DNA from: Polytrichum commune
Lineage: Eukaryota; Streptophyta; Polytrichopsida; Polytrichales; Polytrichaceae
Assembly: GCA_950295325.1 (NCBI GenBank)
Contig: OX485806.1
Coordinates: forward strand, 7,192,001-7,256,000
DNA length: 64,000 nt
Direction of reading: 5' to 3'
The translations under genes were made by a program, and so were the position numbers. The notes below the pieces were generated by a model. It searched no databases. It worked only from the letters and a program-made list of their open reading frames with translations, and had not been told where the DNA came from. This document shows, piece by piece, positions 1,131 through 64,000 of the stretch (positions are counted from its first letter, which is position 1; each line of letters begins with the position of its first letter).

Positions 1131-1908
1131 GCATGCAACCAGATGCACTGTGTTTATGTACTTGTGAAATTGGCAGTGAATAAAGTTGATTTTAGGCTCC
1201 AGGCTCGTTGCTAACAAAGAGGAGACTTCATAGTTGCCGGTGCCATTGGCTCCACTGGCCTCTGAGAGAAGCCGCCTCAGCTGTACTGTTTTTAAACTCC
1301 ATGGCGGAGGTTGGATATGGAAAGAGAACAACCTCCAACCTCTGAAAAATGTTATAATAGAAAGAAAAAAATAACCATTGTACATGAAAAGGGTCCATTC
1401 GCCCACAATGAGTCTAGAGCCCGTGCTGACCTTTCAGTAGGGCTAAGGGATATTGCCCACCTTCAGTAGGTGGACCAAGGAGAAATGAGGATCGAGATTG
1501 GGTAGGGAAGATCAGTTGTCGGTTTTCGCAAGTGTACAGTTTTGAAGGACAAGATTCACTAGGTATCTGATGGCAATTTGATGGAAGGTTTCTATGAGAG
1601 ATTTAATTATGGCGATGCGGATGTGATAGATCATGGAGATGTTCAATTGTGAGGTTATTATGAATAGCTCCTCTTGTTGACTCATGTTGTAATAACACTG
1701 GGAAGAGCTGTGATCAAGCCTGGGCTTCGTAAATGAGTGAAAAGAAAATTTCATCTGAGAAATTAAGTTGTCATACTAATTTTTTAAACTCACGGGTTGA
1801 TCGTGTGTTTTGTCTCAAGACTGGATTTCATAGATTGCAAACTGTAGGAAGGTGAAATGATGTGTTTGTAGGACTATTGGTTGGAGGAGAACTTTGACAA
1901 ATAGACAC
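1131..1908. other. No recognisable gene
   Basis: AT-rich non-coding DNA. Short minus-strand frames at 1008-1406 and 1512-1754 lack domains. The second is just downstream of the Copia fragment and may be degraded retrotransposon sequence, but I cannot show it. Confidence 0.4.
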
Positions 1909-2409
1909 CTACCGAATAAGACAATCAGGTCGACTGTGTGTGAGATGTATTAGCTTGCCCACCATAGACCTGTAGATAGTACGATCAACAAACTCCTCGT
2001 TCATATCCGTTTGCAACTTGAGTCGTTCTCGTTCTACCATCGGAGTTGACGTTGGCTGAGAGTCTTGAAGATTGAAGGTTTCGAGTGTCCGTTGAGCATA
2101 ACCCCTTTGAGTCAAGAATATTCCATGCGGAGTCTGTATAAATTCCGCTTTGAGATATAAGGTGAGATTTCCCTCCCCAAGCTCAGACATCTCAAACACA
2201 TCCTCCAGCTGAGCTCTGAACCAGTCTATCCACTGCGAGCAATTCCCAGTGAACAAAAGGTCGTCAACATAGAGAACGAGAACTAGGATTTTGTCTTCAT
2301 GAGTGATAACGTAAAGATTTTGAGTCCGCAGTTGCTTTGGTGAAGCCCTGATTTTAGAGATATGTGTCAATTTTAGCATACCATGCACGAGGCGTTGGAA
2401 TATGAGCAA
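1909..2409 (-). pseudogene. Ty1/Copia reverse-transcriptase fragment
   Basis: A 166-residue open stretch reads through the second half of a Copia reverse transcriptase. It contains LVLYVDDLLFTG (the YVDD catalytic box), then GYAQRTLETFNLQDSQPTSTPM, then YRSMVGKLIHLTHSRPD, which normally leads into the RNase H domain. Gag, protease, integrase, most of the RT fingers, RNase H and both LTRs are missing. The fragment stops abruptly at 1909. It is an isolated relic with no neighbouring element parts that I can identify. Confidence 0.85.
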
Positions 2410-3078
2410 TTTTGGTCATGAATGGAGGGACAAGCATGCCGCCATACCTCAAAATGTCTCAAAAGCCAACGGTAGCAAGAAAACTTGGAGGGACTAATGG
2501 TCACGCTCTTAGGCTTCCTCACTCACCGGCACACATGGCTAGGGTAAGTAATTGCACGCCGCCTTGTTCGTGCTTCAGTGCACGAAATGAAGGGAGTGGG
2601 TGGGGGTTTTCGGGAGCGAATTTAAAGCTCAGAGGGTCATTCAAGTCCAGATGATGATGTTTCTCCTGGATCAGATCCAGACATAATTTATGAGGTTAGC
2701 TCTGTGAAAGGCAATGCTTGAGATTGCAAGATTAGAGGAACAAAATTTGCGCACTTGAGTGATGCAAAATCTGCCTGCTACACTGCCTGTCGACCTGCCT
2801 GCTACGGCAATCAGATGTCCATACAAAGAGGCAGACAACGAGTGCACTAGTGTACCCAACCTGCATAGAAAATGTCTTTGTACCCAAGTGCCAAACCACG
2901 CTTCGAATGTGAGCCTGGATTACTATGATGTCTGTGGCGCAGGACAAGAGAAAGCAACAGCGGAGGTTTAACAAGTACCTGGCATGGCAGGGCACAGTGG
3001 AGTGTACAAGCAAAAGCAGCCTTTCCTCGGGTCACAAAACCTTTGAGGATGATGGTTTCACTCCGCCAAAGTTGTTTA
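2410..3078. other. No recognisable gene
   Basis: Overlapping short frames on both strands without domains. The last three bases (3076-3078, TTA) are the target-site duplication of the MITE that follows. Confidence 0.4.
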
Positions 3079-3747
3079 GGGCCACGTCACACACGAGCCA
3101 AGAGCCGTGACCATATAATTGTGAGAGCCCGAAAGGAAAGTGTCCAAAGGCCGTCCCAACTCACCTCCAAAATCACGTAGTGTGGTCGCGGACCCTCAAG
3201 TGTGGTGTGAAGTCATATGTGACCGGGCCCTCAACCAAATGCTATTTCAATTAATTTTTATTTATAGGGGTCCTCACACATGATGAAATAGAATAAATCA
3301 ACAGTTGTGAGCGTTTGGAGTGCCATGGTCTCCCGGTTTTGTGTTAGGTGTACCTCCAAGAGGTGGACCCTCAAGTGTGGTGTGAAGTCATATGTGACCG
3401 GGCCCTCAACCAAATGCTATTTCAATGAGTTTTTATTTATGTGGGCCCTCACACATGATGAAATAGAATAAATCAACGGTTGTGAGCGTTTGGAGTGCCA
3501 TGGTCTCTTGGTTTTGTGTTAGGTGTACCTCCAAGAGGTGGTTTTTGAAAATAGTCCAAGTGACCATGAAACCATTCGATGCCATGAAAGAATCCATGTA
3601 GACTTTACATCCATCTTGCATTCACATGCCCTGTTGGTTCCTCAAGCATAGTGTGAAGTGAACTTGGACCAGCTCCGCCTTTTCCACCAATGAGAGTGCT
3701 TGAAGTGCAATGGTCACAGGCTCTCAATGTCGTGTGTGAAATGGCCC
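3079..3747 (+). mobile_element. Harbinger/Tourist-like MITE, family H1, copy 1
   Basis: The element begins GGGCCACGTCACACACGA and ends with the inverse TCGTGTGTGAAATGGCCC, flanked by TTA at 3076-3078 and 3748-3750. A 3-bp TTA duplication plus GGG-starting inverted ends is the signature of PIF/Harbinger transposons. It has no transposase. A second, inverted copy lies at 46199-46703, with clear interior similarity (for example the stretch around CCGTGACCAT and GTGTCCAAAGGCCGTCCCAA). This copy is longer because of an internal tandem duplication. Confidence 0.8.
3191..3540 (+). repeat. 175-bp tandem duplication inside MITE H1
   Basis: Two adjacent units, 3191-3365 and 3366-3540, both start GACCCTCAAGTGTGGTGTGA and both end in CCTCCAAGAGGTG. 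They differ at only a handful of positions, so the duplication is younger than the insertion. The copy at 46 kb has a single unit. Confidence 0.85.
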
Positions 3748-3750
3748 TTA

Positions 3751-6049
3751 AACCACCTAAAGGCCAAGTCGGAATTTTTTTCATTATGGGCAACCACATC
3801 TGCCCGTTCATATTGGTGTTCATGTTTACATTATGTTTGCGTTCTGAATTACGACATGTGGACAATTGGATTGTAATATGAACAATCATGCCTTTATCAA
3901 CATGTCATCCGTACAATAAATCCATTCTAGGTGCAAGAGGGGGGACTTTTCCAAAATTACTAAGAATCCCAAAATTGTCAAAATCCATGAGGTTGTTGCT
4001 TTAAAGAACACTTATCCTCTTATCATTTAAGAAGAAAGAGAGCCTTCAACTTGACAATCAGTAAAATGTTCATATGAGCTCCAAATATTATGAGTAATTG
4101 ACTACAACCACGCTTTGAATTTGCCAATCATGTCATATTTGATTGCATGTTAAACACCATGGGGAAAAGTGGGTTAATTGGTAAAAGCAACCATCTAAGA
4201 TATGTCTACCATATGTATAGTGGGAATTTATGGTTGTAGACCCCATAACTTAAACCACTTAAATATTTCACTCTTTTTTTCCTACAGAGGCCACGGGTCC
4301 TTCTTTTCCCAAAAAAACCCCACATCATGGCCTCATTGTACAGCCAAGGTGGCACCTCTCTTGAAACATACATTCCATTGAGTTCCAAAATTAAATCATG
4401 AAAGTTTTGTGTGATTTCACTTTGGATCATGGTAACGATCTTCTAAGGTGTGGTTGAAGCTCAAATATAAGAGGTCACCAAGGCTTGAGGGCAAAGGCAA
4501 GCTTGTTTGCAAGTGGTCATTCCTCGTCATAATATTTGTCTATATTTAGTATTATGGGAAACACCTAAAATCAAACATGCCCAAACATGGCACTCAAGCT
4601 CAATATGTGAGATACCTACCACCCAATCAATGAACTTTGACCCCTCTAGACAAATTTGAAAATTCAAATACTCACATATGTTCTAAACATGATTATATGT
4701 AGATCCCCTTAAACAAGAGCAATTTACAGCATGTCATCCAAAATTAACAAAAACCTATTTTTTGCTAGTTGCCAATACATGAATATTTATCCTCTACAAT
4801 TGTTGAATCTTCTTCGAGTTGATCAAAATTTTGTTTTTTCTTTTCTTTTCATAGATGTGTAGTGAACTTAGCTACAATGTCTGAGCAACCAATCCAAATA
4901 TATACTATTGACAATGGGTAGTAAAGCCTTTAATGTCAATGATGATCTAAAACTTCTTTCCCATGAGAATAATGGTTGACTCAATTCCCTCCACTTAGAT
5001 GTTGATATTAGGAACCTCAAATCCTCTGTAACAGGTTAGGGATATTGAGGCCTCACAATTGCTAGTGCCCTGCAACCACAAATGAAAGGTCATCTAGACT
5101 ATGGGTAGTGTGGTTGTGTTTATGCTTGTGGTTACTTGCTTTGGTTCTATTTCCATCGAAAATGCATAATAAAGGCTAACCACAACCAGGACTACCTTTA
5201 CTCTATCCACCCACTATTCCGCGTGGTTAACCACCTTTGAAGTGGTTATTCATGTTGATATGGTATCCCTAGAGTCCCTTAAGTTGGCTAAGGTCAGGGT
5301 ACAAAATTGAGGATGCTACCATCTTAACACTACAATCCAGGGCCAACAAGCATAAATTCACTTTAATCTCTTCTTGACTTCAAAAGTAAAACCAATGATA
5401 GATTGCAATTTAGAAGACCAACCCCACCATCAACCACAACCACCTGGTTTGCTTGAAACAAGTGTGAATCTCAAGAATAGAATAGAATAAAATAAATCAT
5501 AGTTGTGGTTGATTACTATAGTTACCCATAACCACCTTAGTAAGACAACGGGTGTCATTTGATTACTTTTCTTTATCGAACACCTACATTCAATTGGTGT
5601 GTGCTTCAATGCGAGTCAAGAACAAACACCGTAAAAAGACACATGTTAAAAAAAAAATTTAAAAAAAGTACGACATCTTTGAATCTAATCTACTACTCCA
5701 CACTCAACATTGAACACAACAGTGAACATGACCTATGCATTCACTTAAGGAATCAACAATTCACGCTCTTTCAATAACCATAACTAAATCAAAGGGGGTC
5801 CGATTTTTACTAATTCTTTATTGTGGATTTCTCAATACAACACAAGTTTTGTCGTATGAATACCACGACCAATATAAGATGAAACCCCATAGAAAAACAA
5901 ACCAAATGACACCTTTAGTGTGAACAACTTGAGTCCGCCAAACAAAGAGACAAAGCTTTTCACGGCCACCTCCATTGCATAGGGATTCCGAGTGACACCT
6001 GGCATGTTAGTATTGGTCCAGCTGTCCCCCGGCCTTCGAGAAAACTGTC
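3751..6049. other. AT-rich intergenic DNA, no gene seen
   Basis: Reading all frames gives only short, compositionally biased stretches with no domain or splice-linked series. I see no terminal repeats or target duplications here. Confidence 0.4.
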
Positions 6050-25000: not shown

Positions 25001-25964
25001 CACTATATGGACAAATAACTGCAACTGTGATTTCTGATATTATGTCATTCCAATGTTCTTGTAAGCATGCAACACGTCGCGAACATCCTTCTTTTCTGTG
25101 ATCATTTGTCATGCATCATAATGTTTTGGATCAAGGCACTGACGACAGATGTTTGCGGAACAGGTCCAGCGGCAAACACGCGTTCTGAACCTCCTAAAGC
25201 AACGTGGTGTCTCCAGCAAATATTTGAGCCAGATCATTGCATCTGGAAGACTTATGCACCCAGGGCCATGCTCTAAGCAAAGCCCCACAGGACGATGTGA
25301 TCATCCATGGTGTGGAACTCCTGTGCTCGTCACAGCTCCCATTGGAGAAACTGTGGAGCTTGTAGTAGGGAGAGAAGGCTTCTTTCCTCTTGAAGAGGCT
25401 CTTCGTATCTGTCATGATTGTCTATCAGCTTTACGAAGTGCAAGTTCGGTAGGGATACAGCATGGAGACATTACCCCAGATCACATCATTCGGGTGACAG
25501 GAAGTGATGGCGAGTATTACTATGTTTTGTCAGACTGGGGACATGCTGTCTTAGAGGAGAGAGACAGTCCTGCTTTATCTCCACAGTTTTCATCCACAGC
25601 AGCTTTACAAGAAGGAAAACTCTTTCCTGCCTCTGATACTGAGAGTCTGGTTTATCTTCTCTATTACATCTGTGGAGGAGTTATTCCAGAATTTGATAGT
25701 ATGGAAGCTGCCTTACATTGGAGGGATCGAGCATGGGCTCGGCGGGCTATTCAGCAACAGCTAGGAGAGGTATCTGCTGTTTTGAAGGCCTTTGCTGACT
25801 ATGTAGACACTCTCTGTGGAACCCCATACCCTGTGGATTATGACATTTGGATGCACCGTTTAGCCCGTGCACTTAGTATTGATCCTAGCAAGAATGAACT
25901 TTCATCTGGTCGATTGGAGTTTATGGCTGAGTCATCAGGAACATCTGCACCTTCGGTGAGCTAA
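22021..25964 (+). CDS. Divergent kinase-fold protein, predicted pseudokinase (multi-exon)
   Basis: Exons read from frame and splice phase: 22544-22768, 22892-23037, 23281-23412, 23468-24158, 24552-24869 and 25149-25964 (TAA). An N-terminal Ser/Lys-rich exon at about 22030-22135 joins in phase, but the start is unresolved, as is the junction between 23037 and 23281. The C-terminal half has a kinase layout: degenerate glycine loop (LGRRSSSVYSA), a beta-3 strand AVHVG where VAIK-type Lys is His, catalytic loop HGDITPDHI (HRDxKxxN with R, K and N replaced), DWG for DFG, then a SDTESLVYLLYY helix. Missing Lys and Asn argue for a pseudokinase. An acidic Arg/Glu-rich segment ends exon 4. The layout recalls fungal-type FunK1 kinases, but this is inference. 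Good splice sites at 25956, 26014, 26060 and 26082 allow an alternative end at 26100. Confidence 0.7.
24201..24230 (+). repeat. (GT)n microsatellite in intron
   Basis: A nearly pure GT run just after the fourth main exon of the kinase-fold gene. Confidence 0.95.
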
Positions 25965-54307: not shown

Positions 54308-55469
54308 TATACAGATGGATCATTTATCCCACCCTTCAAAAAATCCGAAGGCCAAATAGAGGGTAACACCGCAGGCTCAGGGGTATATAGTCCCAACAAC
54401 AACACCCAAATATCCGAAAGGTTACGCGGGTATCAAAACATCCTAAGAGCAAAGCTCAATGCCATACTCATCGCTATTAAAACTATCCAAATCATCCAAA
54501 AAAACACACATATATTCACAGACAGCCTTAACATCATCTACCTAACCAACAACCACATACAACATCCAACATCACCATCTAGACAAGTTACTTATAGCAG
54601 CTATCATACATCAAATATATTCGACCCCATATAAGATATACATACACAAAGTATGAGCACACACATGAATCAATGGAAATGAAAAGGCAGACATAGCCAA
54701 TGAAGGGATACGCATAGACAAACCGGATGAAATACCACACATCCACATAGCCCACTCTAACCCTTACTGGCTAGCAAGCTCCCCTACTGCCACACACCAT
54801 GGGGCCATTCGCAACCTTCACACATTCATAACGAAAGAACACGTTAACCAAGTAACCGCATCAGCCAGACAAAAATTCACATATGTAGATAAGTGGCTAT
54901 CAAACGACCAAATCAACCAAAAACTCTCCAACCACTTTTGGAAAGACGACAAAATACCGGACACACAAGTTACCCAAACCCTAAAATTTAGATACGCCCA
55001 ATATATGGGCAACCATAGGAAAAATATATTTTGGCCCCTCAAATACCAAAACCCCAACTGTACACTATGCCATACCAATGATAGGGACACATGGCCCCAC
55101 CTACTATCAACATGCGAACACCCATACCTAAAAGGATTACAAATTGCAAGACACAACAAAGTAGTCCACCTCATCACCCAAACCCTACAAGCCAATAAAA
55201 ACACCCGATACTATACCCTGACCAATGCAGGCAAACTCAACAATCAACCCCCAAACCAAACAATCCCAAAATGGCTTCTTAAATGCACATGTACACAAGT
55301 AACATGCCAATGCCAGGCCAAATTAAGCCCAGACATAATGTGCATTATTGGAGCACCTAATCAAACACAAACACCTATACTACCCTCCCCCAACTACACC
55401 ATACAATTCATCGAAGGGAAAAGCTATTTTGCGAGCGGTGAGCGGTGTGCGGTGAGCGGTGAGCGGTAA
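54308..55469 (+). pseudogene. LINE 3' end: RNase H domain plus C-terminal zinc-binding motif
   Basis: Frame one (54308-54634) reads YTDGSF (first Asp), TAGSGVY, RAKLNAIL (consensus RAELxAI; the catalytic Glu is Lys) and IFTDSLN (next Asp). After a stop and frame change it resumes near 54665 with GNEKADIANEG (HxGNExAD box). It continues unbroken to 55469 through FRYAQYMGNH and CTLCHTND....HLLSTCEH, a C-x2-C...H...C motif typical of the end of LINE ORF2. Reverse transcriptase and endonuclease are absent, so this is a 5'-truncated, inactive copy, as usual for target-primed insertion. No poly(A) tail seen. Confidence 0.8.
55433..55467 (+). repeat. GAGCGGT heptamer tandem repeat
   Basis: Five 7-bp units, one variant (GTGCGGT), overlapping the end of the LINE frame. 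Confidence 0.9.
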
Positions 55470-57054: not shown

Positions 57055-60000
57055 TTACATCAGATCCGAATCACTGTGATCACGTGATGATGAAGACATT
57101 CTAGAATCACTAATATATGCATCAGAGGAGGCCTGACCATCTGATTCTAAAGCTTCTATATCCAAAAACTCTAAAACTCTTCCCGGATGATATTTAGATG
57201 TAAACGTCTGATAAGAACCTCCAGCTAGTTGATTAGCAGTAACATTTGCATATGTAGGAAGTTGCCAAGACTTTGGAGGGCTGGGATAGAATTTAGGGTC
57301 ACAAAAAAAAGGCCGGTGAATAGGATAGCTCAATTTATCGCATCTGCAAATGCCAATGGTACCATGTTCATAACTCAACTTTAGAAGAAATGACAGCAAA
57401 AAACATAACACTGGTAAGAGAATTTGTGGACCATACTCACTTAGTAAACCGAGATCTCTTCACAATCCTCTCAACGGGAATATCTTCACCCTTAGGATCC
57501 TCTACACTTGTGACACGGTCTTCAAGAGTGACTTCAGAGGCTGCTCTAGAGATAATCAATGGAGCAAGTACGGCCCTCAAAAATATCTACATCAGCCTCT
57601 AATGCCGCAATGTGACGGTGCACATTGCGGCATGCATGAATGGAAGATCCTGCAAATAAAGAAGTTGGAAAAACTTAGTACAAAAACCACTATGAATTTT
57701 GTAGAACAAAACAATATTAACAATTAACCAACTGAAATGCAAGATTACAAAGACATACCGGTCGCTGCCGTGCAGTCTAGAATAATATCCCATGGGGAGC
57801 TACATGCTTCAATTAGCATTTGCATTAGAAGCACGGACTTTTCACGAGGCCCTCGCCATGGTGTGGATCCATTAGTTAGCTGGTCCTCACGAGAGACCAA
57901 GTTCTGGAGAATATCATCCCGTGCAACATCCACCCCATAAGGATCCAATTCAGGGACATGGCGAAATGAAAACTTCGATGCAGGTGACCCCGGCACGCTC
58001 CTGACCGCCAATGAAATACCGAACCTCATGGTCTATAATGTACCAAACATAAAGATCAATATTACTTTACAAAGTGAACAACAGAACTGCGTGAGTATAA
58101 TAGTTAGGTGGGTCTACACTCAGAATTACCTCAAGGATGAAATTGAAACTGAATGCGGTGATCAGAAAGAAGACTTAAGCTTTATCTTACAGTTGATGCT
58201 GGATTTATTGGAGATGTAAGATGAAGGCGGTTCATTCCCCACCACTCTTTCCGAATTGCAAAACCATGCGATTTGCAATATCCAAGAATATTGGACTTCG
58301 TACTCATGCGAAAAGGGTGAAACAAAATAATTGCCCCGTCGTCGTGCAGATGTTCGTCGGCAAAGTCAAAGAGTGGTTGTAACCACTCTTTCGATTCTTG
58401 ATTCCAAGCGGGAATGGACGACGGTGGGTTTGATATGCCAGGAACAGGAAGACCTTCCGGTATATCTGCAAGAATCAAGTCCAAACAGGGATGGTCATCC
58501 GGAGAACCCTTGTAGTGCCGGGTTTTGTCTTTTGAGTGCTGCACAATCAAAGGACAACCAGGTTTGGTGTTAAAATAATCCTCCTTGCTTTGTACATTGC
58601 CTAGTACTAGCCCTTATATCAAACATATCTATACTCATTACTAACCTTATATAATACACAAATCTAACCTCTTATCAGGTTACAATTGTTACCCACATAT
58701 CTAACCACAGATCAAAGTACCTTTATGACACCCATATTCAACCTCATATCAGATTGACCTTATAACATGCGAATATAACCTCACATCAGATTGTACTTAT
58801 AACACACATATCTAACCTCATATCACACACATATCTAACCCGATATCAGATAACAGATATAGCCCAGATATCTTATCTCCCATCAGATTACAGTAATATC
58901 ACCCATATTCAACCCCAATTCAGATAGACCTTACAACACATATATCTAACCTTAGATCAGATTACACTTCTAACAAACATTTCTAACATCATATCAGAGT
59001 ACACTTATAACAAGCATATCTAGATATCAATATCTACTATGATTGTAGGTAGTAGAGTTTGAATACCAGAAAATGTGTCTCGGGACCGAGACACTCAAAC
59101 TCGGCCCTGGAAAATCAGAAATGTCTAAGCTTAAATCAGATTACCCTTATACCCACAATTGCAAACTAACCTCACATCAGATTGCACTTGTAACCCACAT
59201 ATCTAACCTCACATCAGTTTGACCTTAATACTAGCATATCTAGACCTCACATCAAATTTCACTTCAAACACACATGTGTAGTCTCATATCATAGTACCCT
59301 TATACCAAGTAAATCTAGATTTCAATATCAAATATCATTGTAGGGTTTACAGTTTGAATACCAGAAAATGTGTCTCGGGACCAAGACACTCAAACTCGGC
59401 CCTGGAAAATCAGAAATTTCTAAACTTGCCTCATATTACCCCAATACCCAAAATTGCAAACTAACCTCATATCATATTGCACTTGTAACCCACATATCTA
59501 ACCTCACATCAGTTTGACCTTAATACTTGCATATCTAGACCTCACATCATATTTCAGAGAAGGTAAAATTCAGAGAGGGCGGGGATTTCACTTAAACAGT
59601 GTTCCGACTAAAAAAGTTCAAAAATTAACATGACACCTCACCATTCATATTTCAACTCCTAATTTCCACAAACAAAATGGTACAACAAAACAAATGGCCG
59701 ATTGCAAGCACAAAACAAATTGCCGAGTCCATTGAGGGCTCAGCTCGCACTCCACATGGTGTTTGGGTCCCGCATAAACTATACCCTACCAGCCTTACTT
59801 GTCAGATCCATGATTCGGTCCCGAAAAAAATTATAGCCGATTACTGAAATATGAAAAGTAGTACCTACTGAATGTTCAATGTGGACCACATTGAAATGCA
59901 TAAATTTAAATGCAAACATGTTATGACAAAATTAAGGAAGAGCAGTACCTTGAGCATGAATCTTTTCAACTCGTTGTAGGAAGGGGTGAATTCCTCCGTG

Positions 60001-63000
60001 TCACCGCCAAGAACGTCCTCCATTGAGGCGTTGAGAATGAGTTCTTGAATATGGATATCGAGCTCCTCCCCCGATGTCAAAATAGGAATTTGACTCAACT
60101 GCTCATAGGAGGAATCGCGTTTTGTTCCTCTAGAAAATGTTGGAGCATGAGAACCAGATTCATAGGTTGGACTTGGAGCAACGGGACTCTTACCTTCTAG
60201 CTCAGAATGGGGGTTCATCTTTTTTTTCCCCTTCATGGTAGTCTTCTCCAATGATTTTTTAAAGTTTTTCCATCTCTTTCTGTGCGGCTTTCTCCTCTGC
60301 TTCCTTTACTCTAAGCGCCTTCTTCCTATCCTCTTCTAGACGTCGGGATAGGGCCTTTGCCCTCTCATGCTCGTCTTCTATGCCCTGTAAGTCAATCATC
60401 TCAACACCAGATTCTCCAACTGCCTCCCTTGACTTCCAAAGTTCAGTTTCAAAGGAAGGAGTGAAACTAGGAACACAGTCAAGGTACCAACCACCTCCAG
60501 TGAGATGTGAGGTTGACCATGTACGCTGTTGATTTGCTGAGAACATGCACGTGGAGTTAGACCTGTCAAGCCATGCTGAGAGGAATATAGGGAGATCTTC
60601 TTTTGTTATTGTTCCTTTTGCAAGGAGCTCGTACTTGAAATACCTGCGGGAAAGACACAGCTCATCATTAAATACCTTGCAATTGACATAGCTGCCATAT
60701 TAAAAACCAAAACACTATGCCAAATCAGATGTCACTAACTAAGCTTATATCATATAACACTAACTAAGCTTATATCAGATTACCCTCGCATCATATTCCA
60801 CTTATAACACACAAATCTAACCTCATATCGGATTGACCTTAATACAAGCATATTTAGAAATCACATCAGAATGCACTTATAACACACATATCTAGCCTCA
60901 TATCAGAGTACACTTATACCAAGTATAGGTAGATATCAATAGCAACCATGTTTGTAGGTAGTAGAGTTTGAATACCAGAAAATGTGTCTCGGGACCGAGA
61001 CACTCAAACTAGGCCCTGGAATTTCAGAGATTTCTAGGCTTATATGAAACTAGGCCCTAACTAAGCTTATATCAGGTTACCCAAACTAAGGTTATATCAG
61101 ACTCCCCTAACTAAGATTGTATCAGATTTCATTACCTAAGCTAATCTCAGATTGCACTAACCAAGCTTAAACCAGACTACCCTAACTAAGCTTATATCAG
61201 ATGTCACTAACTAAGCTTATATCAGATATCACTAAATAAGCTTATATCAGATTACCCTCACATCATATTACACTTATAACACACAAATCTAACCTCATAT
61301 CGGATTGACCTTAATACAAGCATATCTAGAAATCACATCAGAATGCACTTATAACACACATATCTAGCCTCATATCAGAGTACACTTATACCAAGTATAG
61401 GTAGATATCAATAGCAACCATGTTTGTAGGTAGTAGAGTTTGAATACCAGAAAATGTGTCTCGGGACCGAGACACTCAAACTAGGCCCTGGAATTTCAGA
61501 GATTTCTAGGCTTATATGAAACTAGGCCCTAACTAAGCTTATATCAGGTTACCCAAACTAAGGTTATATCAGACTCCCCTAACTAAGATTATATCAGATT
61601 TCATTACCTAAGCTAATCTCAGATTGCACTAACCAAGCTTAAACCAGACTACCCTAACTAAGCTTATATCAGATGTCACTAACTAAGCTTATATCATATA
61701 TCACTAACTAAGCTTATATCAGATTACCCTCACATCATATTACACTTATAACACACAAATCTAACCTCATATCGGATTGACCTTAATACAAACATATCTA
61801 GAAATCACATCAGAATGCACTTATAACACACATATCTACTATGATTATAGGTAGTAGAGTTTGAATACCAGAAAATGTGTCTCGGGACCGAGAGACTCAA
61901 ACTCGGCCCTGGAAAATCAGAAATGTCTAAGCTTAAATCAGATTACCCTTATACCCACAATTGCAAACTAACCTCATATCAGATTGCACTTGTAACCCAC
62001 ATATCTAACCTCACATCAGTTTGACCTTACTACTTGAATATCTAGACATCACATCATATTTCACTGCAAATACACATCTCTACCCTCATATCAGAGTACA
62101 CTTATAAGAAGTACATGTAGATATCAAACATTGCTAACTAACCTTATATGAGATTAAACTTATATCAACCATATATAACCTCATATCAGATTTCACATAT
62201 AACCCTTAATACAACCAAATGTAGAGCACACACCAGATTTCACATATAACACAAATTTCTAACCTCATATCAGATTACCCTAATACCTCAAAGTGCATAC
62301 TAACATCATATGAGAGTACACTTATAACACACATATAGAACTGTAGTATGAAAGGAGAGAACTCACTGAAAGATAACTCTTCGGACAATCAAGTCTGTCC
62401 CGTTAAATCCCTCAAATTCGTGAGTTTTGTTAAAGGCCTCCTGCCCTCGGAAGAATGTGGGAAACGCGTTGTCCCATAATTTCATTCTACAGTCCTCGAT
62501 GTATGCAACCAAGGTCAAGGGCTCGCTGGGTAGTGCAAAGTTGATAGCAAGTTTGTCTTGGCGCAAAGTGTCTTCAAATATAATGGAAGCCTGATCGGAT
62601 ATCTGTATATACAGAGAGTGAATATGAACAAGAATTTGAGCAACATCGATTCATATATTGAAATAACCGTGAAACCAAGAGAAAGACCAATTAATGTAAG
62701 GGATCAAATCAAGTAACACCGAACTAAAGGGTACATAGGGGATTATGTACTCACTCCTTCCCAAAAACATGCCTTGGCTAGGAATGCCTGCAATTTGTCC
62801 TCATTGGTGGGCTTGGTTGGCATTTTGCGAGCCTCACGTGTTGATGAAGAGGAATTGATAATTCCAACCATTTGATTTTACAAGCGGGTGATGCTTTTGC
62901 AGTAGCGATCAACTGCAATTTCTCTAAGTTGAGCTCGGGTGCAATTGAGTTAAGAGTATAGTGACGCGCAATTTGTGACCCATAGAGCAATATATTAAGA

Positions 63001-64000
63001 TCATGGAGATTAATGAATTACTTGAAAAATGTAGAATGGGTTTTAAAGTAGTGGACATACCTCCCGAAGCCATCCATCTGTCAAGTCTGGGTTTGCCACA
63101 CAAACTAGTTTTGACATTTTCTTATGAAGTGCCTCGGCTCTCTTTGAAGCAGCGACCTTCATGGCGGCTGTTTTTTCAGCAGCAGACACCTCTCCATCCG
63201 TTTGCTCAAGAAGTTGACGAACGCCTTCATCTGCAGCAAGTGCCAGTTCGTGCTGGAAAGGGATTACTATAGTTAGTTTGTAATCAAACAACTGCGACAA
63301 AAAGGTGTTATGAAAGCACATAAAGAAACAAAAACATTCAAACATCAATTATAAGTACCAAATGTTGAAAGGGATTAGATATAAGAGTAATCACATCATC
63401 AAGCATCAACATTACATCATACCTGGAAGATGAAGCTCGTGAATACATGTAGATTTAATGAATACCATGTCTTCTTTGAAGTTTGAGATTTCTTGCACCT
63501 TTCAATATCAGAGGGAGTCAAAATGTCTTGGTACTGTTCGAGCGGCATAAGTCCATACTTCTGCACCCTAAATAGAGTGTGAACTGTGTTTGTCTTCACG
63601 TGAGAGTCTTCCGTATGTCTACAAGTAACAATCATATATTAAATACAAGAACAACATAATATATGTACATAGATGAAAACCTCAAAAAATGGACTTAGAA
63701 AACTTACTTGTTGATATTATGCATAACTTGCATAACAATACCAATTTTTCCCTTGGTGTCAAGGAGGATGCTATCCACCAAAAAATGCCAGGACTCTTCT
63801 GTTTTGTGAAGTCGTTCAATATGGTTCAACCAAGCCTGCCGCCTATGGTTCCCGTCACAAACAAAGAACATCAAATTCGTAAAACCGGCTAACTCTGGAA
63901 CGGACAGAAGAAAGGAGTTGAATTGTTCATTTTTGGCACTCCAAATAGGACCCCACGATGTCTTATCAGCCTCAGTAACCTCATGTGTTTTCCCTTCTTC
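57055..64000 (-). CDS. ParB-like / DNA-methyltransferase-like protein, 3' ten exons (partial)
   Basis: Ten exons in order: 63708-64000 (open to the edge), 63423-63618, 63061-63252, 62755-62832, 62367-62602, 59949-60643, 58191-58538, 57759-58032, 57441-57649, 57055-57343. All junctions are GT-AG and agree in phase, giving about 935 residues. The first exon holds VCDGNHRRQAW, resembling the DGxHR core of ParB/Srx-type domains. Exon 6 has a Glu/Lys/Arg coiled coil. Exons 7-9 look like an N4/N6 DNA methyltransferase of beta-type order: ILADIPEG at the DPPY position (58440-58470), IILFHPFRM, a GF...W...LHLTSP stretch, NGSTPWRGPREKS, then ILDCTAATG (SAM motif I) and IAALEADVDIF. The catalytic Pro-Tyr is replaced (DIPE), so activity is doubtful. 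Exons 6 and 9 each need removal of one base to stay open. No name is known to me. Confidence 0.65.
57571..57577 (-). other. Single-base frameshift in exon 9 of the methyltransferase-like gene
   Basis: On the coding strand the run GAGGGCC shifts the frame between VDIFE and AVLAPLI. Removing one G restores a frame that meets both neighbouring splice phases. It could be a real mutation or a homopolymer sequencing error. Confidence 0.65.
58600..59600 (+). repeat. Intronic satellite, block 1
   Basis: Lies in the intron between exons 6 and 7. Built of short words such as ACCTCATATCAGATT.CACTTATAACACACATATCTA, plus two copies (near 59052 and 59350) of a conserved 75-bp core containing AATACCAGAAAATGTGTCTC. 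Confidence 0.85.
60252..60262 (-). other. Single-base frameshift in exon 6 of the methyltransferase-like gene
   Basis: The coding strand reads AAACTTTAAAAAA where the coiled coil (KEMEKL) meets a stop. Dropping one T continues into KKSLEKTTMKGKKK and keeps exon length in phase. Homopolymer context again leaves mutation or error open. Confidence 0.7.
60700..62340 (+). repeat. Intronic satellite, block 2
   Basis: Lies in the intron between exons 5 and 6. It has a 20-bp word (CTAACTAAGCTTATATCAGA) repeated many times and a higher-order period of 472 then 421 bp, marked by conserved cores at 60961, 61433 and 61854. The 60.76-61.2 and 61.23-61.7 kb segments are nearly identical. Confidence 0.9.

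Follow-up and report, generated by a model that had tools for sequence, protein, structure and literature searches.

Near the right-hand edge of the window (the 64,000-nucleotide stretch of Polytrichum commune DNA analysed here, C4:7192001-7256000) lies a gene of ten minus-strand exons whose product joins a segment with a DGNHR box to a domain resembling a DNA methyltransferase. A first-pass annotation, made from the letters alone, proposed that the gene descends from a phage or bacterial fusion of a ParB/Srx domain with a methyltransferase, perhaps carried by a mobile element or acquired by transfer. What is such a gene doing in a plant genome and whom does it serve? We report here that, together with a transposase gene, it forms a two-gene DNA transposon. 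Our preferred reading, a tentative one drawn from sequence, is that this second gene of a cut-and-paste element would encode a self-targeting DNA-binding protein, referred to below as protein 2, which does not methylate and probably has an anti-silencing or regulatory role.

The genome searched was a 408-Mb assembly of 64 contigs. Exon 7 of the gene, which carries the motif DIPEG, gave at least 150 scored matches among 1129 first-look candidates, at 70-100% identity, and it was this genome-wide repetition that led to a search for a mobile element. The search for copies and terminal repeats in this genome bore out the suggestion of mobile carriage, with hundreds of matches in all. The copy in the window belongs to a DNA transposon of 16,549 bp, the home element, which starts at window position 55416 and ends at C4:7263964. 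Both of its ends are terminal inverted repeats (TIRs), and a 10-bp target-site duplication, ATTCATCGAA, stands on either side (left copy at window 55406-55415, right copy at C4:7263965-7263974). The left TIR comprises GGGAAAAGCTATTTTGCGAGCGGTGAGCGGT and a run of GAGCGGT heptamers (window 55416-55467, plus strand); the right end, GGACGAAGCTATTTTGCGAGCGGTGAGCGGT (C4:7263964, minus strand), was found by extending the contig and has the same terminal sequence. With up to two mismatches allowed, the terminal pattern occurs 132 times in forward and 134 times in reverse orientation, and the reversed control in neither. Among the 99 exact termini listed there are 14 adjacent convergent pairs less than 30 kb apart, 12 of which enclose a methyltransferase exon, and for 38 of the 150 exon matches an exact terminus facing inward lies no more than 6 kb away on the 3′ side, an outward-facing one being found for none. 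Ten TIR pairs were inspected at both ends: the 10-bp duplication is perfect in eight, matches at nine of ten positions in one and is absent from one. Copy F belongs to another family; its termini have diverged (CAGGAATGCTAC and CAATGACGCTAC), and it carries a duplication of its own (ACAGTGTCGG) and spans 17,796 bp. In the two most distant families the end inspected, 3′ of the gene, has a similar terminus (7 mismatches in 25). The element transposes or once did. Its duplication falls inside the 8-11 bp range of Mutator-like elements (MULEs), and it has TIRs, which are usual in MULEs though not universal. A long retroelement-like open frame at window 54669-55466 (plus strand), whose only Pfam match is weak, below threshold and to an unrelated family, runs into the left terminus of the home element.

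The transposase gene lies entirely beyond the window (region L001:4870-8295, plus strand), divergent from the protein-2 gene. It is interrupted by in-frame stops in the home element and forms a single open frame of 1241 codons, including a stretch resembling an in-frame intron, at locus L009; at least 37 large copies were scored genome-wide. By eye, the residues FDHV...FMADSAQANW...CLLHW suggest a DDE-like layout with a C..H pair, and the C-terminal CTC...CKH gives a weak match to PF04434 (E=0.036, 14.1 bits, below the cut-off of 19.6), the profile of the SWIM zinc finger that many MULEs possess. The MULE catalytic domain PF10551 had no match in the transposase pieces scanned with Pfam, and the KDZ transposase profile PF18758 had none genome-wide, being equally silent in control genomes. 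A methyltransferase exon lies within 25 kb of 16 of the 37 scored copies, in 14 cases divergently, whereas random placement produced 0.76 on average and never more than 4 in 1000 trials; the count of 16 is a lower bound, only scored matches having entered it, and the lengths of contigs C5 and C6 are approximate. The same divergent pair recurs in the L016/L015 and L018 families, whose protein 2 is ~28-39% identical to that of the home element. At L009, by exception, both genes point in the same direction, apparently after rearrangement. A candidate third gene, open reading frame (ORF) T0 (L001:3922-4413), is conserved at 75-98% and was rejected, its nonsynonymous divergence (dN) being about equal to its synonymous divergence (dS).

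Extension of the contig to the right recovered the 5′ end of the protein-2 gene, which spans window 57055 to extended position 64342 (L001:1342), with a likely ATG start codon near extended 64327. All ten minus-strand exons could be placed, their boundaries being chosen by us under the guidance of GT/AG, with an AG acceptor at nine of ten exons and a GT donor at all nine introns. The first-pass statement that the exon phases agree did not hold for the home copy, in which exons 4, 6 and 9 are each off by one base. They measure 218, 695 and 209 bp, against 219, 694 and 208 bp in copy B (C2:23769801-23789800), and the exon 4 acceptor reads AA. The first nine exons of copy B join without a stop over 1000 codons (an insertion interrupts its exon 10), so that the gene model is correct and it is the home copy that is defective. 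Exon 1 (window 63708-64000, continuing to extended 64342) carries the DGNHR box at 63842-63856 and is followed by exons 2 (63423-63618), 3 (63061-63252), 4 (62755-62972) and 5 (62367-62602). Exon 6 (59949-60643) encodes a charged helical stretch with only weak Pfam coiled-coil matches (E 0.13-0.29). Exon 7 (58191-58538) holds the motif IV position, DIPEG, at 58452-58466; exon 8 (57759-58032) a PWRG..EKS helix and the motif I position (ILDCTAATG, with DCTAATG at ~57757-57777); exon 9 (57441-57649) the remainder of motif I and a motif II-like HIAALEAD; and exon 10 (57055-57343) a Ser/Asp-rich C-terminus and the stop codon. The motifs, the charged stretch and the Ser/Asp-rich tail are all where the first-pass annotation had them. 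In the L014/L015 family exons 5-10 are merged as a single frame of 577 codons.

Exons 7-9 were correctly recognised as an N4/N6 methyltransferase domain of the beta order, with motif IV before motif I: Pfam, PHROGs and phage tblastn searches all returned matches. PF01555 (N6_N4 methyltransferase) exceeds its cut-off in the L015 and L014 ORFs (32.4 and 35.3 bits) and reaches E=1.4e-5 with the spliced copy-B domain (25.6 bits, 1.1 below the cut-off of 26.7), while the PHROGs match is to the DNA methyltransferase phrog_3008 (E=6.9e-7). Against phages, the copy-B domain matched 296 records by tblastn (best E 2e-5), with DNA methylases aligned over the full domain (87% covered, 25% identity, E=7e-5), and the L015 ORF matched none. 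A structure model of the domain (mean predicted local distance difference test, pLDDT, 33.7) had no Foldseek match at E<=0.001; such models prove nothing.

The catalytic motif is, as had been supposed, non-canonical. At 15 of 16 loci the aromatic position of motif IV is occupied by Glu or Asp (ADIPEG or VDIPEG at eight loci, VDQPEG at three, LQFPDG at three and VDIPDG at one), the sole Tyr being that of VDIPYG in L015. The first Asp is replaced by Gln at three of the 16, and the motif IV sequences depart from the catalytic (D/N/S)PP(Y/F/W). The home clade has DCTAATG, DCTVATG, DCMAATG, DCIAATG and similar sequences as motif I, L014/L015 have DLFVGTG or DLSVGTG and L018 has DLTCSTG; at most loci the GxG of this motif has become AxG, VxG or SxG. 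In the N4CMT enzyme of bdelloid rotifers, replacement of the Ser and Tyr of SPPY by Ala is reported to abolish the addition of N4-methylcytosine (4mC) (PMC8885841). Judged from its residues and from this analogy, protein 2 would be a pseudo-methyltransferase working without methyl transfer.

Protein 2 is nevertheless maintained and is under strong purifying selection between families. Across four exons in the home clade dN is ~0.12-0.31 with synonymous sites near saturation (proportion of synonymous differences, pS, 0.66-0.91), ORF T0 of the same elements serving as a neutral yardstick. Exceptions are exons 7 and 8 of copies B and F (dN/dS 1.69 and 0.98, based on a very small number of changes) and some close pairs (0.27-0.60). 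Copies B and F are near-identical in these two exons (pS ~0.02) and saturated in exons 1 and 6 (pS ~0.75), and families appear to have swapped the 3′ half of the gene across intron 6/7, which is filled with repeats; similar mosaics occur in L010 and in L008/C. The L018-like family, represented by 41 matches at 34-37% identity among those listed (e.g. C2:10878690), 38 of them without a stop, is perhaps the youngest.

If protein 2 no longer modifies DNA, what might it do? A clue lies in arrays of palindromes within the elements. Dyad repeats with arms of at least 8 bp number 9 in the home element (shuffled 1, 1, 1), 23 in L018 (0, 2, 0) and 20 in F (0, 2, 0), against 14 (4, 6, 3) in the 55.4 kb of the window outside the element. 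Palindromes of the home clade share the core TCGGnnCCGA, which is present at 11 of 11 loci in 2-18 copies each (home 7, A 10, B 18, L008 4, L011 8, F 18, L010 9, L012 7, L013 2, C 2, L009 3) and is absent from D, from L018 and from the 55.4 kb beyond the element. In the home copy one palindrome, TCTCGGnnCCGAGA, lies in intron 6/7 (window 59078-59091), three lie in intron 5/6 (60987-61000, 61459-61472 and 61880-61893) and two lie upstream of exon 1 (extended 64441 and 64874). The outer arms are family-specific and mostly paired: GTCTCGG/CCGAGAC, GTTTCGG/CCGAAAC, GGTTCGG/CCGAACC, GGCCTCGG/CCGAGGCC and CTGTCGG/CCGACAG. Over 21 hand-picked distinct sites the covariation score of the arms is 0.359; shuffles stand at 0.140, none of the 500 reaching the observed value, and slid comparisons do not exceed 0.176. 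Over all 37 distinct sites of the 11 loci the paired fractions of the six outer positions sum to 3.70, the maximum in 2000 re-dealings being 3.03. Between families, the sequence 11-60 bp from the core agrees at 0.26-0.34, the level of unrelated sequence (baseline 0.29, 99% at 0.38), and the repeat units of the home element have periods of 295 and 472 bp, those of L018 of 64 and 32 bp. Since the flanks are unrelated, unrelated repeat units of differing period have been built round the same core.

These palindromes also mark the elements across the genome. The genome contains 1310 sites of TGTCTCGGnnCCGAGACA and none of its reversed control; among the 50 listed, all on contig C1, every one is enclosed by a pair of TIRs (one such span measuring 81 kb) or by a TIR on one side and a methyltransferase exon on the other, and 34 have such an exon no more than 15 kb away. 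The palindrome of the distant clade, TGTGCGn4CGCACA, occurs at 852 sites (control 4); D has five copies and L018 has six, every one situated between the transposase gene and the protein-2 gene. Two of three otherwise unexplained TGTGCG clusters were inspected and each was found 5′ of an L018-type gene, represented by its exon 1 and methyltransferase exons, one of the clusters having a divergent transposase on its opposite side; as these clusters had been chosen by their palindromes, the palindrome predicts the element. A second palindrome, GGGTCGnnCGACCC, occurs in arrays that flank the L018-type gene on both sides (L018:8953-9736 and 4221-4285). In the interval C1:461578-483000 an L018-type element, with palindromes at 461578-462635 and 478073 and an exon at 482350, apparently has a home-type element nested in it, with a TIR at 463016 and an exon at 472476.

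In the mechanism that we propose, protein 2 would consist of an N-terminal DGNHR segment, possibly ParB/Srx-like, a helical middle and a C-terminal beta-type methyltransferase domain which would no longer methylate, its catalytic and S-adenosylmethionine (SAM) motifs having decayed in most families. It would bind, as a symmetric complex, the palindrome arrays in introns and between genes and would in this way recognise its own element family. The most likely effect would be that the element is kept free of host silencing, or that its transcription or transposition is regulated, as by VANC in VANDAL elements. Our guess is that palindromic sites suit a dimer and that a site of parS type would go well with a ParB-like segment. 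A bolder form of the proposal, which we consider doubtful, is that of a second, independently evolved self-recognition system of plant DNA transposons, in which a ParB-like/pseudo-methyltransferase protein would bind, in a sequence-specific way, parS-like palindrome arrays that evolve along with it in each family, a DNA-modifying enzyme of bacterial and phage type having been turned into an anti-silencing or copy-clustering factor.

Several results weigh against the view of protein 2 as a non-methylating, self-targeting palindrome binder. Loci L012 and L013 keep the core with outer arms that are barely palindromic (0-3 of 6 pairs); two of five covariation measures fall within their shuffles (105/500 and 41/500), and the 21 sites used for them were picked by hand. 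As the sites are tandemly amplified, the 1310 genomic sites represent far fewer independent events, and for only 8 of the 50 TGTGCG sites listed is there a listed methyltransferase exon of the clade no farther than 15 kb away. Motif I of L014/L015 (FVGTG) still looks capable of binding SAM, and L015 keeps the Tyr. For the transposase, an hhalign comparison with three MULE proteins of this genome did not rise above shuffles (score 11.7; shuffled mean 15.7, maximum 26.7). Because this comparison and the MULE profile were both negative we call the element Mutator-like, a label resting on duplication length, termini and residue layout, and not a MULE.

The N-terminal segment adds to these difficulties, every profile, fold and database search for a ParB/Srx identity having been negative. 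Conservation of exon 1 is seen at identities as low as 28-36%, and its GxxR box reads DGNHR in the home element, B, L010, L012 and L018 and DGNHP in L016. Pfam gave no ParB match (PF02195); the best match of a PDB profile search was unrelated (E 0.093), and the best PHROGs matches were to two families of unknown function (E 0.37 for copy B, 0.019 for L018). A tblastn search against phages found none, hhalign against four bacterial ParB sequences scored 14.2 (shuffled maximum 15.5 in 40), and none of 433 viral and 58 genomic pattern matches was confirmed. The features that point to the family are the DGNHR box and the strand and helix order of a structure model, which roughly resembles that of ParB/Srx; the model is a poor one (mean pLDDT 45.8) and has no Foldseek match at E<=0.001. 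Of the two halves of the proposed fusion, the methyltransferase in exons 7-9 is thus recovered by significant matches and the ParB part is not. Fusions of ParB with methyltransferases occur in phages (PMC12704722), and descent of the gene from one of bacterial or phage origin is plausible. The assembly itself holds bacterial-type fusions (CDPPYG, FAGSG) on two small contigs, C12 (L027:1294-2796, in the order ParB, CDPPYG, FAGSG) and C10 (L030), both probably bacterial contamination. The methyltransferase frame of L030 (ORF 1435-3237) seems to have an insert between DPPY and the C-terminal part, with a Cys start and a ...VTHN|C end, which may be intein-like.

The main rival concerns the palindromes, which a transposase or a host factor could explain equally well. 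They might be transposase sites, or hairpin-forming by-products of replication or silencing, protein 2 having another role such as the one in integration proposed for mudrB; we regard this as a real though not a likely alternative. Hairpins and small RNAs can be promoted by inverted repeats, and the arrays lie between the two genes as well as in the protein-2 introns. Additional ORFs of unknown or integration role are, moreover, described in MULEs (PMC6446971). On the other hand, the arrays are concentrated in introns of the protein-2 gene and at its 5′ side and not at the TIRs, and their two central bases vary while the arms covary, a pattern that a dimer fits at least as well as a hairpin does, although it does not single out protein 2.

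Protein 2 might alternatively be an active enzyme which marks element DNA with N6-methyladenine or 4mC at or near the palindromes, hiding the element from the host or signalling to it. Homology of the domain, the FVGTG of L014, the nearly intact motif I of L015 and the DIPYG of the latter speak for activity, but the Glu or Asp at the motif IV aromatic position in 15 of 16 loci, the altered GxG of most motifs I and the published loss of N4CMT activity on replacement of the Ser and Tyr of SPPY make it improbable. Two further explanations have very little probability left: that the gene is a captured fragment without function for the element, like the sequences that MULEs are described as often carrying (Pack-MULE type; PMC6446971), is already contradicted by the recurrence of the same divergent pair at ~28-39% protein-2 identity and by purifying selection between families, and that it is a host gene derived, as the first-pass annotation proposed, from a phage or bacterial ParB-methyltransferase fusion and acting for the host, agrees with the domain order seen in L027 and with the DGNHR box but not with hundreds of copies in TIR-bounded elements or with the undetected ParB homology. 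Single-gene and captured-cargo readings were rejected on copy number, gene pairing, selection and the enclosure of the exons by TIRs.

The closest parallel to a self-targeting protein 2 is found in the VANDAL elements. VANC21 is reported to cause a local loss of methylation, and its motifs to build up in tandem within VANC21/VANB21 introns and upstream of VANA21 (PMC5735166). As described there, such elements share with ours a transposase gene accompanied by a multi-exon second gene, and a short motif which is arranged in tandem in the introns of that second gene and upstream of genes and which differs from family to family. Confinement of the tandem arrays to their own element family was also found here, among the 50 of 1310 sites listed. 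They differ in that the motif here is a palindrome with covarying arms, that protein 2 has a decayed N4/N6 methyltransferase domain and that TIRs are present, Vandal being termed non-TIR in one account (PMC13317346). We would therefore say that protein 2 may work like a VANC, not that it is one, the likeness being one of anatomy.

Other known systems resemble parts of the element. The ParB-N6_N4 fusions described from phages and bacteria combine an N-terminal box of GxxR type with a downstream methyltransferase of the beta type, in which motif IV precedes motif I (PMC12704722); here, by contrast, the gene is eukaryotic, has ten exons, resides in a DNA transposon and has a decayed catalytic motif, and the searches for ParB homology were negative. 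Methyltransferase genes are reported from the retrotransposons DIRS (Dam-like) and SymbioLINE/SymbioDIRS and KnitGypsy (C5-cytosine Dnmt) (PMC5890265). As in our element, a DNA-methyltransferase-type gene is described there as being under purifying selection; those genes belong to other domain families and are predicted to be active, whereas ours is of N4/N6 type, looks inactive and is carried by a TIR transposon. The N4CMT of bdelloid rotifers is likewise a transposon-linked, bacterial-type N6_N4_Mtase domain in a eukaryote, but is described as a host gene with SPPY and shown activity (PMC8885841). In the open-access literature, with subscription papers, preprints and repeat databases outside the scope of the search, we found no TIR DNA transposon, Mutator-like or other, with a ParB or N6_N4 methyltransferase gene. 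What we describe is a DNA transposon whose accessory gene, built on a methyltransferase, may have an anti-silencing role; we do not claim novelty in print for it.

The remainder of the window carries genes of the GrpE (PF01025) and acyl-ACP-desaturase (PF03405) types, in keeping with a plant source, together with fragments of a DDE_1 transposase (PF03184; 33700-34527, plus strand) and of a copia-type reverse transcriptase (PF07727; 1912-2415, minus strand). An open frame at 25143-25961 (plus strand) has a kinase-like stretch (HGDITPDH...SDWG), as has another (FHCDLSF...IGDWG) at L016:6099-7260 (plus strand), between the two genes of the L016 element; Pfam gave no match to either frame.

Few transposon-encoded anti-silencing proteins are known, and how their targets change is an open question. 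The element described here exists in many families, diverged to ~30-40% protein identity and each with a readable candidate target, which makes the co-evolution of protein and motif directly testable. It would also represent a bacterial-type methyltransferase domain kept by selection in a eukaryotic DNA transposon after the loss of its catalytic residue.

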